DNA of 27,699 bases from IMG/VR virus record IMGVR_UViG_3300042549_001733, positions 1-27,699 of that record; one strand, 5' to 3'. The translations under genes and the position numbers were made by a program. The notes under the pieces are model-generated. The model saw nothing but the letters and a program-made list of their open reading frames with translations, was not told where the DNA came from and searched no databases. Positions within the stretch are counted from its first letter, which is position 1. Each line of letters starts with the position of its first letter. This stretch comes from a virus. Positions 18,837 through 23,214 of the stretch are shown here, in pieces.

Positions 18837-19245
18837 TCTTGACGATCACCCGTTCGATCTTGGCAAACTCCAGGGGAGCTCCATCGGCCCCGGTCAGTTC
18901 ATGCTTCTGTGTTTCGGCCCAGCGCATTTGGGTCTTGCTCCACCAGATCATGGCTGTAGTGTCGCCGCCCATGGCTTTCTGAAATAGGGTTTTCCCTACA
19001 TGCCCGTTTGCCTTGGCCTTGCCTGAGACCAGCTCGGTGGCAAAGTGGGCGCGGAGCGTGTCAACGTGGATGCCGTCGCGCACCAGAACTGCGATCTGGT
19101 CGATGGGCAAGCCGTAGCCTGAGAGCGCCTCGACTTGTTTGCGCTCGGCGTCGGTAGGTTCAAACTCAGGTCGGCCAGCGCCTGGTCGAGCGCCACCATT
19201 GCCGCCAATCTTTTTATAAGTGGGTTTTTCAGTTTTAGTTGCCAT
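18829..19245 (-). CDS. Terminase small subunit
   Basis: 138 residues from the ATG at 19245, chosen because GGAGG lies at the right distance; an upstream in-frame extension would run 144 bases into the methyltransferase gene. Residues 14-26 (GGNGGARPGAGRP) form a basic Gly/Pro arm typical of this group. About 30-75 is a helix-turn-helix-like segment (DAERKQVEALSGYGLPIDQIA; VDTLRAHFATEL). The tail (TGADGAPLEFAKIERVIV) is typical of terminase small subunits. It recognises the packaging start and loads the large subunit. It overlaps both neighbours by about ten bases. Confidence 0.85.
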   Translation of the reverse strand: MATKTEKPTYKKIGGNGGARPGAGRPEFEPTDAERKQVEALSGYGLPIDQIAVLVRDGIHVDTLRAHFATELVSGKAKANGHVGKTLFQKAMGGDTTAMIWWSKTQMRWAETQKHELTGADGAPLEFAKIERVIVKNG

Positions 19246-20458
19246 TTGTAACCTCCGCGAAAGTCTTGCCGGTTTCGGCGTGTGTGGCTTTTTTGCCTGT
19301 GAAGTCCTGCCAGCGCTTGATGATGACATCGCAATACTTTGGGTCAAGCTCCATGAGGCGTGCCTGACGATTGGTTTTCTCGCAACCAATCAGGGTACTG
19401 CCGCTGCCTCCGAATAGGTCTAAGACCACCGCCCCTTTGCGGGTGGTTTTGTCCAGCGCTTCTTCGGAAAGCGCCACGGGCTTCTGTGTTGGGTGAACGT
19501 AGGTGCTGGAGCCGTCCTTGTTGATAGTCCAGACAGAACCAATGCGCTTGCCGCACAGTTCAGCACCACGGTGCCAGACCAGCGCCACCTCGTAGTCGCT
19601 GCTGAATGTCTTTTTAAGGTCACCCATGCCGCCGCCTGGCTTGTGCCAGATAACAATGTTGGTCGGATAGCCAAAACCGTTGAGACTTTCTATCCAGCGT
19701 GTCTGAACAGCCCAACTTGTCCAGACAAAAACCCAGCCGGTCGAAAACATTTCAATGATGGGGGCGATATCTAGGATCTGGTTATCGTTGGCCAGAACAT
19801 CAAATTGTTGTGACTTTGGCCGCCAATTTGATTGGTACTCGATCCCATAAGGCGGGTCAGTAAACACCATATCGGCCTTGCCGCCATCCATCAGCTTGTC
19901 TACCGCATCAATGCTGGTCGAATCCCCACACATCAAACGATGTTGCCCAAGAATCCAAACATCGCCCAGCACCGTGACCGGCTGCTCTGGCACTTCTGGC
20001 ACCGCATCCTCATTGGTCAGGCCAGGCTCGATTTCCTCTGGCATCAGCGCCGCAATTTCTTCGGCTGTAAATCCAGTTAGATCAAGATCAAAATCCATTC
20101 CTTGAAGCTCGCCAAGCTCAAGCCGCAACATCTCATTGTCCCACCCAGCATTCAGCGCCAACTTGTTGTCAGCAATGATGTAAGCCCGTTTCTTGGCATC
20201 GCTCCAGCCTTTGGCAACCATGACCGGGACTTCGGTCATCTTGAGGCGTTGGGCTGCGAGAGTGCGCCCGTGGCCGGCAATGATGCTGCCGTCCTCATCC
20301 ACCAGGACTGGTGTTGTCCAACCCCATTCCTTGATGCTGGCTGCAAGCTGGCTGATTTGTTCGTCGGAGTGAGTGCGGCTGTTGCGTGCGTAGGGCACCA
20401 GCTTAGTGATGGCCCACTTTTCCACTTTATCGGCTGGGTTGTAGGTTTTCTCAGCCAT
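19235..20458 (-). CDS. ParB-N/DNA methyltransferase fusion (beta-class N4/N6)
   Basis: 407 residues. The ATG at 20458 overlaps the stop of the 43-residue gene by one base. Residues about 15-140 are a ParB-N domain (LVPYARNSRTHSDEQI; IAGHGRTLAAQRL, with GHGRTLAA at 62-69). The methylase half has the catalytic DPPY at 201-204, then PTQKPVAL at 323-330 and the SAM-binding DLFGGSGST at 347-355, so motif IV precedes motif I, as in beta-class N4-cytosine/N6-adenine enzymes. Such ParB-fused methylases are common orphan enzymes in phages and prophages. It probably modifies phage DNA against host restriction or to mark packaging. No partner restriction gene is present. Target sequence is unknown. Confidence 0.9.
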   Translation of the reverse strand: MAEKTYNPADKVEKWAITKLVPYARNSRTHSDEQISQLAASIKEWGWTTPVLVDEDGSIIAGHGRTLAAQRLKMTEVPVMVAKGWSDAKKRAYIIADNKLALNAGWDNEMLRLELGELQGMDFDLDLTGFTAEEIAALMPEEIEPGLTNEDAVPEVPEQPVTVLGDVWILGQHRLMCGDSTSIDAVDKLMDGGKADMVFTDPPYGIEYQSNWRPKSQQFDVLANDNQILDIAPIIEMFSTGWVFVWTSWAVQTRWIESLNGFGYPTNIVIWHKPGGGMGDLKKTFSSDYEVALVWHRGAELCGKRIGSVWTINKDGSSTYVHPTQKPVALSEEALDKTTRKGAVVLDLFGGSGSTLIGCEKTNRQARLMELDPKYCDVIIKRWQDFTGKKATHAETGKTFAEVTNGN

Positions 20459-20600: not shown

Positions 20601-20804
20601 TTAAATTGTGGGTTTTTGTGTGACGTTTGCATTTTGCCCTAAATTTTGCTGGCGTGCTAGTTTCATGGCATCTTTGAGATCGAGTCTGAGTTGTTCGTTT
20701 GCGGCCTGTTCGTCTTGGAGTCGAATGTAGCAGTCGGTGGCGAACTTGGCCAAGTTGCCATGTTCCCAGTTATAAAAATATGGTGTTTCTCTTTGGTTGT
20801 TCAT
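20601..20804 (-). CDS. Small hypothetical protein
   Basis: 67 residues from the ATG at 20804 (MNNQRETPYFYNWEHGNLAK). In-frame ATGs at 20843 and 20870 would give longer forms of up to 89 residues, but those have no better ribosome site and would code across a perfect DnaA box. The product has ATDCYIRLQDEQAANEQLRLDL, a short coiled-coil-like helix, and a Gln/Asn-rich tail. I do not recognise it. It is the first gene leftward of the origin-like region and leads into the secreted peptide and methyltransferase genes. Confidence 0.55.
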   Translation of the reverse strand: MNNQRETPYFYNWEHGNLAKFATDCYIRLQDEQAANEQLRLDLKDAMKLARQQNLGQNANVTQKPTI

Positions 20805-20815
20805 TTCAATCTGCC

Positions 20816-21014
20816 TGTGGATAACTTTTTTGATGGATGACATGAGGTTGAGTATCGAATTTCGCTGCATCGATCGGTAACTGGTAACTCTCTCTAAAGA
20901 GAGAGTTACGTTACGTTACCGGATATCGCTGCTTTTGCCCCCGGTAACAGTTACGTTTTTTTACGTTACAGTTACCAGTTACCGCTATTCCTTCTGTGGA
21001 TAACCTGTGGATAA
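20816..21014. other. Putative replication origin: DnaA boxes plus GTTAC repeats
   Basis: Three perfect DnaA boxes (TTATCCACA on the minus strand) lie at 20816-20824, 20995-21003 and 21006-21014. Between them are ten GTTAC/GTAAC units (20877, 20884, 20905, 20910, 20915, 20944, 20950, 20965, 20971, 20978), some in direct tandem, and a T7 run near 20956. The region is non-coding apart from optional N-terminal extensions of the small gene on its left and lies immediately beyond the primase-helicase gene. Tandem units with DnaA boxes and a replication gene alongside are what a phage or plasmid origin looks like. Function is inferred. Confidence 0.6.
20884..20909. repeat. 26-base palindrome within the origin-like region
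   Basis: GTAACTCTCTCT and AGAGAGAGTTAC are perfect 12-base arms separated by AA. Its arms end in the GTTAC unit that then repeats at 20910 and 20915. It may form a cruciform or bind a dimeric initiator; no T-run follows in either direction, so a terminator is unlikely. Confidence 0.75.
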
Positions 21015-21020
21015 CTTTGT

Positions 21021-23036
21021 TCATGGCATTGATTTCCTGATCAGCATGGCGCTGGCTTGAACTTGGTCGATGACGATCCAACCATGCTCAAAGGACTCGA
21101 TGATTTGCGCGGTAAGTAGGTCTGCGATGGGTTTTCCTGGCACGCTTGGTTTGATGTATTGCTTGGCTGAGGCCTCGCTGACGTTTAGCTTTTGAACAAA
21201 GTATTCCATGATGGCTGATCGGCTGAGGTAGGGTAAACCATTACGTTCTTCAGCACCAGAGGCCCACCAAGCGTTTTCAAAGGTCTTGCGATGGCTATCT
21301 AGCTTGTTGTCCTTTTTGTCGGCTTTGATGGGCGCTGAGGCCTCCACAATCACTGCGCTGGTGACTTGCTGATCGTCCTCATCGCGCCAGCCTGGGATCT
21401 CGACTGTTTGAAGGTTCACATAAACGGTTTCGGCAAGTTCTGCGTCTTTTGACTTGCGCTGGACGATTTGCATGGGCTGGTCGTCTTTGCCTGGGATGAT
21501 GCTGATCTCAATATCCAGAGCGCCGCGCCATGCACTGGATCCCCTGGCCCGGTGCTGGGCTTCGTCTGACACGCCGGTGTGATGCACCAAGATGACTGAG
21601 CAGTTGAATTCCATCATGAGGGCGTTGCAGGCATCCAGCATGGTTTTGGCATCTTGGGCTGAGTTCTCATCGCCCTGCAAGAATCTGTGCAGGGTATCGA
21701 CCACGATGACGCTGGGGCATTCTTGAAGCATCCTGACCTGCTCAACAACTTTGAGGTATCCGGCGGGGGTGTTGAGATCGCATCCGTCTTTGGAGAGCCA
21801 CATCTTGAGCTTGCCTGCTTGGTGGTGGTGCTTCCAGGCTGCGACCCTGCCACGTAGACCGTGATGGCCTTCGCCGGCCAGATAGACCACGTTGCCTTGG
21901 CGTACTTTGTGGCCTGCCCATTCCTCGGTTCCGCTGGCCATCCTGAGACACCAGTCCAGCACCACGAAGGTCTTGCCGCCACCTGATGGGCCGTGAACCA
22001 TCACCAGTGCTTGGGACTGAATCCAGCGTTTGACCAGCCAACTGATGGGGGAGGGCTGGGCGCAGAAGTCGTCCGCAGGGATAAGCCAGTCATCATGGGA
22101 GGGCATGAGAAGGCTGGCCAGATCATTGCCTGCTTGGGCGTAATCGTTGGCATCGCCTTGGATGGGTGGCATGACCATCCTGGCCCCAAACTTGGCGCTG
22201 GCCTGTTCTGCGTAGCGTTGGCCGACGCCGGAGCTGTCATTGTCTGCCACGATAACGATGTCCTGGGTTGCGCCGTGCATTTCTCTGAGTGTGCCTGTGA
22301 CTGGCACGAGGTTGCTGGCGCTGTAGGCGACCACGACTGGCCGGTTGGTGGTTTCATGGATGGTGGCCGCGGTTGCGAAGCCTTCGGCCACGTAGAGTGT
22401 GCCCGGCTCGTCCATGGTGCCGATCTGCCAGAACTTGCCCCCGGTCTGGCCGCCAGGGTGGTAGAGCTTGCCGCCTTGGTGGTCTATGTATTGAAGGCTG
22501 GAGATTGTGCCGTCTGGATCGTAGAGGGGGACGACAAGCCGACCGTCTCCTGTGGCCCTAGCCCCATGAACGCCGATGCCCTTCTTGGCTAGGTAGGGGT
22601 GATCGGGTAGCGCTGCCTGAGCGCCTGTCCAGATTTTCTCCACTGTGTCGCTGGCCAGTTGGTGCTGACGTTCCAGGGCTGCATCGCGCATGGCTTTGGA
22701 CTCGCTAAGGCGTCTGGCATGTGACATTTCCTCTGCCTGGGTCAGTTTGCGCCCTACGTCTGCACGCCATGTGACTTCTATGCCTGAGCGCCAGCAACCA
22801 AACCGACCGGCTGGGATGCCATCACCAAACACCAAGTACCAGCCCGGCTTGTCAATGCCTGGTGTTCCTTTGGTTCCTGATTTGAAGCGGTGAATCTTGC
22901 CGTCCATCTCGATGTGATCTGGAGGTTCGAGGCCTGCTGCTTTGATGGCATCTAGGAGCTGCGCCTCTGGTGGTGCTACCAGTTTTTCGGGGGATGGCGA
23001 CCAAGGGCCGCCGAGGATGTTTGAGAGGTCAGCCAT
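21021..23036 (-). CDS. TOPRIM primase-helicase (RepA-like AAA ATPase)
   Basis: 671 residues from an ATG at 23036, overlapping the HTH stop by eight bases. Residues about 1-140 have FKSGTKGTPGIDKPGWYLVF and GCWRSGIEVTW, seen in phage bifunctional primases lacking a zinc finger. TOPRIM spans about 210-300: VAEGF with Glu218, then ADNDSSG with Asp265 and Asp267. The RecA-like ATPase has Walker A GPSGGGKT at 349-356, Walker B VIVVD at 443-447 and VILVHHTG at 481-488, as in RepA-type hexameric helicases. About 570-671 is a winged-helix-like tail. It would unwind and prime phage DNA. It borders the origin-like region, which supports an initiator role. Confidence 0.88.
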   Translation of the reverse strand: MADLSNILGGPWSPSPEKLVAPPEAQLLDAIKAAGLEPPDHIEMDGKIHRFKSGTKGTPGIDKPGWYLVFGDGIPAGRFGCWRSGIEVTWRADVGRKLTQAEEMSHARRLSESKAMRDAALERQHQLASDTVEKIWTGAQAALPDHPYLAKKGIGVHGARATGDGRLVVPLYDPDGTISSLQYIDHQGGKLYHPGGQTGGKFWQIGTMDEPGTLYVAEGFATAATIHETTNRPVVVAYSASNLVPVTGTLREMHGATQDIVIVADNDSSGVGQRYAEQASAKFGARMVMPPIQGDANDYAQAGNDLASLLMPSHDDWLIPADDFCAQPSPISWLVKRWIQSQALVMVHGPSGGGKTFVVLDWCLRMASGTEEWAGHKVRQGNVVYLAGEGHHGLRGRVAAWKHHHQAGKLKMWLSKDGCDLNTPAGYLKVVEQVRMLQECPSVIVVDTLHRFLQGDENSAQDAKTMLDACNALMMEFNCSVILVHHTGVSDEAQHRARGSSAWRGALDIEISIIPGKDDQPMQIVQRKSKDAELAETVYVNLQTVEIPGWRDEDDQQVTSAVIVEASAPIKADKKDNKLDSHRKTFENAWWASGAEERNGLPYLSRSAIMEYFVQKLNVSEASAKQYIKPSVPGKPIADLLTAQIIESFEHGWIVIDQVQASAMLIRKSMP

Positions 23037-23214
23037 GTGACACCTTGCGGCTTTCTAAGTAGTCAGAAAGAGCCTGCAAGACTTTGTGTGTGGGGTTTGC
23101 GTCTGGGTTGTCGCGCACCTTGCGGATGGTGTTGTAGTGCACGCCGGTGGCCTCTGCCACCTTCATGGGCATTCGGTCTGAGAGGGCGTCTCGTATCTGT
23201 TCGAGGGTCATCAT
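23029..23214 (-). CDS. Small HTH transcriptional regulator (Cro/XRE-like)
   Basis: 61 residues; ATGs at 23214 and 23211 both follow AGGAGAAACC. The core PMKVAEATGVHYNTIRKVRDN (about 16-36) is a helix-turn-helix, followed by a third helix (THKVLQALSDYLES). Single-domain proteins like this act as Cro-like repressors or as initiator partners. It is the first gene of the leftward arm, is translationally coupled to the primase-helicase, and faces the divergent operon, so it probably regulates the 23215-23342 region. It lacks a dimerisation or cleavage domain, so it is not a CI-type repressor. Confidence 0.8.
   Translation of the reverse strand: MMTLEQIRDALSDRMPMKVAEATGVHYNTIRKVRDNPDANPTHKVLQALSDYLESRKVSHG

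Follow-up and report, generated by a model that had tools for sequence, protein, structure and literature searches.

A putative replication origin directly downstream of a phage primase-helicase gene and its probable recognition by the C-terminal winged helix of the encoded enzyme

The DNA analysed here (hereafter the window) is a complete IMG/VR record of 27,699 bp, which represents a linear fragment of a P22-like phage and encodes P22-type portal, head and connector genes as well as terminase genes. A minus-strand gene (21021-23036) encodes a primase-helicase of 671 amino acids, composed of Pfam domains Toprim_3 (residues 214-302) and AAA_25 (residues 320-490) and a C-terminal winged helix (residues ~572-671). 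The AAA_25 part resembles RSF1010 RepA (1g8y matches residues 324-503), i.e., a RepA-type hexameric helicase. The start of this gene is overlapped by a Cro-like HTH gene on the same strand (23029-23214). Past its end at 21021 lies the mostly non-coding stretch under study (20816-21014), followed by a small conserved ORF (20601-20804, minus strand), the start of which was deduced from relatives, where the next gene begins ~217-228 nt past the primase-helicase stop codon. A gene encoding a ParB_N domain fused to a DNA methyltransferase (N6_N4_Mtase; 19235-20458) adjoins this region and the terminase genes. An Rfam search of the window returned no match.

The original prediction had described this stretch as a compact origin next to a primase-helicase gene, with three exact DnaA boxes, ten GTTAC/GTAAC pentamers and a 12+2+12 palindrome, and each of these elements was recovered. 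The DnaA box TTATCCACA is present as three exact copies on the minus strand, including box 1 (21006-21014) and box 2 (20995-21003) at conserved places ~7 and ~18 nt past the primase stop codon, and box 3 (20816-20824) ~198 nt past this stop and ~10 nt ahead of the start of the next gene; no further exact copy exists in the window (Poisson P ~2e-10 for three in 199 bp). All ten GTTAC pentamers (both strands counted) fall within 20877-20982, where the window-wide shuffle rate predicts 0.08 per 106 bp (Poisson P ~4e-18). They are arranged in two sets without assigned strand, the first of which (20944-20982; units at 20978, 20971, 20965, 20950 (+) and 20944 (-)) surrounds an A7/T7 tract and the second (20877-20919; units at 20915, 20910, 20905 (+), 20884 and 20877 (-)) a hairpin. 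This hairpin is the perfect palindrome (20884-20909, minus strand, 26 nt) with CTTTAG at its centre, and it is nested in a larger perfect 15-nt inverted repeat (20875-20889/20970-20984). The array region has a GC content of 42%, compared with 54% in the window, and contains no long AT-rich stretch.

Alignment of origins from relatives reveals one plan common to both main unit types, which reads on the minus strand as two DnaA boxes, an inverted unit set around A7, the non-unit element GGGCAAAAGCAGCG, a second inverted set around the hairpin, the element CGATGCAGCG, the third box and then the next gene. Three elements other than units and boxes are conserved in both types, namely the A7 tract GTAAAAAAAC (20955-20964, minus strand), which is a possible melting site, GGGCAAAAGCAGCG (20927-20940, minus strand), which separates the two unit sets, and CGATGCAGCG (20863-20872, minus strand) past the array. 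No function could be assigned to the latter two, which may be bound by a further protein of the host or phage. The arms of the hairpin differ among relatives and yet pair (98.4% of cells paired), with both sides changed in six of the seven pairs and a covariation score of 0.905, compared with 0.273 in shuffles and reached by none of 500 shuffles. Judging from these alignments, the palindrome has been kept through compensatory changes.

The same gene was gathered from public phages, IMG/VR and MAGs, which yielded ~300 loci in total (for MAG contigs, a single-protein query detected no locus and an alignment query 22). Public relatives include Salicola CGphi29, Idiomarinaceae 1N2-2, Alteromonas PB15 and XX1924, and two metagenomic genomes, one of which is P22-like; we found no paper describing the origin in the cultured relatives. 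Many of the loci are metagenome contigs, some of which may be misassembled. Two contigs each carry two primase-helicases of the window's family, 87% and 81% identical to that of the window in one case (L018, 60,673 bp) and 86% and 55% in the other (L031, 39,666 bp), and they may represent chimeric assemblies, concatemers or two replicons.

In most of the ~300 loci, an array of short units lies directly 3' of the primase-helicase gene, and the unit varies by clade (GGTAAC, GGGAAC, AGGGGGC, GGGGACA, GGTACA, GGTTCA, GGGACA and others). Among 106 representatives sharing <90% identity, the median count of the top 6-mer is 7 downstream of the gene and 3 inside it, and this 6-mer exceeds all 100 shuffles in 64 of them; for the window itself, the top exact 6-mer was equalled by one of 100 shuffles. 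In nine genome-length relatives, units cluster only beside the primase-helicase gene, as do DnaA boxes in several of them. Within the window's clade, two or three exact boxes at constant spacing are found in 59 of 60 loci, and 162 exact boxes occur in the 60 origins versus a single one in the remaining 539 kb of these loci. Conservation in relatives, which the original prediction had put forward as a test of an array of iterons for a phage initiator acting together with host DnaA, thus supports that proposal, with an almost universal array, a varying unit and boxes kept in the clade, while DnaA binding and the start of replication remain inferences. However, no exact box was found downstream of the gene in CGphi29, 1N2-2, PB15 or XX1924 although arrays are present there, implying that DnaA cannot be essential to the mechanism across the family. 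Two insertions separate the gene from the array, one of ~960 bp (L009) and the other of ~270 bp (L052), and in both loci the array and boxes remain intact as one block. The longer insert, which follows the primase stop codon, contains an acyltransferase-like gene as judged by eye.

Comparison of primase-helicase sequences with array units offers a way to name the initiator. Among close relatives (35 of GTTAC type and 28 of GTTCC type), only two of the 671 residues separate the types perfectly, namely residue 626 (Q versus V/T; codon 21159-21161) and residue 633 (P/Q versus T/N/S/K/V; P633 codon 21138-21140, minus strand). Both map to the C-terminal winged-helix domain (codons 21024-21323, minus strand). 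An AlphaFold2 model of the last 100 residues predicts a winged-helix-like fold with high confidence (pLDDT 94, pTM 0.84; strand 30-34, helices 35-45, 50-56 and 65-71, hairpin 75-84), in which residue 626 lies on the helix formed by residues 621-627 (EASAKQY; codons 21156-21176, minus strand) and residue 633 just past it. That this is the recognition helix is predicted from the usual winged-helix topology. A Foldseek search against the PDB retrieved generic winged-helix regulators only, as a match of fold class (best E 0.05), and no homologue with a known DNA complex. A tree from which the C-terminus was left out implies about ten changes of the unit, with at least seven changes forced by supported branches, and residue 626 changes likewise in seven of seven independent pairs (p = 0.016).

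A similar relationship extends to part of the wider family. Among representatives with <90% identity, Q at residue 626 is accompanied by a G-T core in all 23 cases that could be classified, and a G-G core accompanies V, T or I in 27 of 28; the remaining locus, L099, has a different C-terminus. In addition, Q, L or M followed by Y corresponds to GTAAC, and Q followed by another residue to GTACN or GTATA. The pairing of glutamine with adenine would suit such a rule. However, K or N at this position is paired with either base, and arrays made of C and G only (AGGGGGC type) go with a different helix; the residue-to-base rule derived from these alignments is therefore partial, and the code is incomplete. 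In a family-wide tree test of the rule, all differing pairs point in the same direction, but only four are on supported branches (p = 0.125), which is not significant alone. A further 29 related loci (L116-L127, L129, L134-L137, L140, L143-L144, L146-L150, L153-L155 and L189) have lost or replaced the recognition-helix motif (SRRN and similar) and lack an array, and in those that were read the next gene follows almost directly after the stop codon. In another branch (L006, 2227-4119; L291, 2791-4692), Prim-Pol and PriCT_1 replace Toprim, and the AAA_25 helicase, winged helix and downstream array are unchanged in kind; a Prim_Pol-containing phage protein was also the one strong Foldseek match among viral models. 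The stable module, as far as gene comparison can define it, is helicase, reader and array. This covariation allows the initiator to be identified as the neighboring primase-helicase, whose C-terminal winged helix almost certainly reads the array, although binding is inferred from covariation only.

Only ~135 nt separate the codon of residue 626 from the stop codon, which made it necessary to rule out co-inheritance, i.e., the possibility that unit and residue co-vary merely through adjacency and are exchanged together as one recombination block. Some switches do have sharp borders. For example, between L016 and L023 the gene is 95.5% identical, the helix 82%, the segment between helix and array 74%, the array 57.5% and the following DNA 97.6%, which looks like a single block swap from the gene end through the array. 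However, L044 and five GTTCC relatives (L046, L056, L057, L060 and L061) share only 78-80% identity in the helix patch and 65% in the array, but 99.2% in the 121 nt that separate these two. Identity in the DNA beyond the array is 91-94%, and the arrays of same-type control pairs at like distance are 97-99% identical; a similar trend is seen for L066/L069. These two patterns indicate that some switches exchange a single block and others two distinct patches. At third codon positions, mean MI with unit type is 0.15-0.18 over the last 50 codons versus ~0.08 in the rest of the gene, indicating some linkage that is far from 0.99, and residues closer to the array associate less with unit type. Moreover, the residue-base rule described above holds in distant clades as well, and linkage could account for the movement of a block but not for which residues match. 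Linkage as a full explanation was ruled out by the third-position control together with the L044 case, and we consider that adjacency alone very probably does not underlie the association.

Other products encoded nearby were examined as candidate readers of the array. For the Cro-like HTH protein, no alignment column separates the unit types (maximum MI 0.33) and its promoter region is devoid of GTTAC units; Sak4 does not track the unit (maximum MI 0.30); and the small downstream ORF reaches an MI of 0.65 without perfect separation. The ParB-methyltransferase gene, which is located only 0.5 kb from the array, raises the question of whether this enzyme might read the array as a site for partition, incompatibility or methylation. 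The enzyme could be detected in just 33 of 63 clade loci. Its highest-scoring columns are covered by few aligned sequences and separate the unit types incompletely, whereas separation by the primase-helicase C-terminus is complete, and we give this explanation hardly any credence. It could also be argued that the array is a transcription-control site (an operator or terminator region) bound by the primase-helicase winged helix or the Cro-like protein and controlling the operon or the packaging and structural genes that lie downstream, given the hairpin after the gene, the small HTH gene within the operon and the position of DnaA box 3 just ahead of the start of the next gene. However, neither a T-run nor a terminator call was obtained at the array and hairpin, which indicates that the hairpin is not an intrinsic terminator; the HTH protein fails to follow the unit type; about ten units plus exact DnaA boxes seem excessive for an operator; and the boxes remain with the array in the loci where an insert has displaced it. 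A role confined to transcription control is therefore unlikely, while added autoregulation by the initiator is not excluded.

Taken together, we propose with a probability of roughly 0.86 that 20816-21014 is a replication origin bound by the C-terminal domain of the primase-helicase itself with the help of host DnaA, a reading that rests on comparative sequence evidence in the absence of data on replication starts, binding or coverage. The anatomy, its conservation, and the covariation of unit with recognition-helix residue and of the two hairpin arms are observed in the alignments, and binding, loading order, melting, DnaA use, the strand of first priming and the start of replication are inferred. 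In the model that we put forward, the primase-helicase, whose gene lies immediately upstream on the minus strand, would be the initiator, and its monomers may bind the GGTAAC/GTTACC units of the two inverted sets by their C-terminal winged helices. The bound initiator would then load its own RepA-type ring helicase and, once rings have assembled, the A7 tract or the hairpin might be opened by the helicase and the fused primase might begin synthesis. In the window's clade, host DnaA on the flanking exact boxes may aid assembly or opening, as at iteron plasmid origins (PMC4980987); this use of DnaA is deduced from box conservation and cannot be general. The original prediction had also suggested looking for an extremum of cumulative GC skew here, and this test gave no support, since the nine genome-length relatives show no consistent turning point at the array. 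GC skew is a weak test of origins at this genome size in phages. In the same nine relatives, the minimum of AT skew always falls ~2.2 kb upstream of the primase stop codon at a divergent promoter, where gene orientation predicts a turn. Neither skew was thus retained as evidence for the origin.

Several known replication systems share features with this module. The C-terminal domains of SaPI Rep and of SCCmec Cch2 mediate binding to repeats located downstream (PMC7581432), and PICI origins are located 3' of rep (PMC6092414); in both SaPI and PICI systems, the C-terminal domain of an initiator helicase recognises short repeats directly downstream of its own gene, and alleles with different repeats exist. 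The phage meets this plan in array position, with iterons immediately 3' of the initiator helicase gene, and, by covariation only and without binding data, in recognition by the C-terminal domain. SaPI/PICI-type origins also have an AT-rich melting site with an iteron set on either side of it; in the phage, two unit sets are present, each inverted, one around the A7 tract and one around the hairpin, and a long AT-rich stretch is missing. The differences are that the helicase is of DUF927 or D5 type in these islands and of the AAA_25/RSF1010-RepA type in the phage, that satellite islands lack full virion genes of their own whereas the phage module resides in whole P22-like and other tailed phages (including a complete P22-like genome, MW202867), and that, in the clade of the window, the array lies between DnaA boxes. 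Satellite P4 uses an SF3-type helicase and has a second, distant repeat site (crr). The P4 alpha protein with ori/crr (PMC4234260, PMC6092414) resembles the phage system in uniting a Toprim primase, a helicase and a C-terminal winged helix in one repeat-binding protein (binding being inferred for the phage), but the nine genome-length phage relatives have a single repeat cluster and the helicase families differ. At the origins of iteron plasmids such as RK2 and P1 (PMC4980987), initiator repeats are likewise combined with DnaA boxes, the latter missing in several distant phage relatives; however, their Rep proteins are winged-helix initiators without a helicase that recruit host DnaB, while the phage reader carries its own AAA_25 helicase and primase and its units are of 5-7 bp. 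Plasmid pRN1 requires a stem-loop located 3' of the replication gene (PMC4234260). The origins of pRN1 ORF904 and phage BIP-1 resemble that of the window in this position and in a stem-loop whose structure, but not its sequence, is conserved, as well as, for pRN1, in having a repressor gene ahead of the replication gene in the operon. In contrast, iterons are absent there, whereas an array of units encloses the phage hairpin, and the phage has Toprim as its primase domain (Prim-Pol in the L006 branch). Helicase family, host element or repeat plan sets the module apart from each of these systems, and the best reading by analogy is that the phage origin may work like those of SaPI/PICI and P4 but is a member of neither.

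These comparisons yield a probable origin, a named initiator and a residue-to-base rule from sequence alone for a large, common and hardly studied group of aquatic phages, and widen the plan of an origin 3' of the initiator-helicase gene, which had been described in satellites and in a small number of plasmids, so that it takes in whole tailed phages, one clade of which adds host DnaA. The repeated coupled switches represent a natural experiment on how initiator and origin can evolve jointly and stay functional; two domains and two DNA fragments taken from the natural alleles would suffice to test the model. One tentative explanation, which we hold with less than even confidence, is that the module provides a switchable private origin code, in which the recognition helix and every array unit have been exchanged together repeatedly, at times as two patches, driven by diversifying selection that co-infecting relatives, satellites or nucleases directed at origins (such as Odn, known from the ICP1-PLE conflict; PMC8263062) would exert, with the DnaA boxes as a fixed frame.
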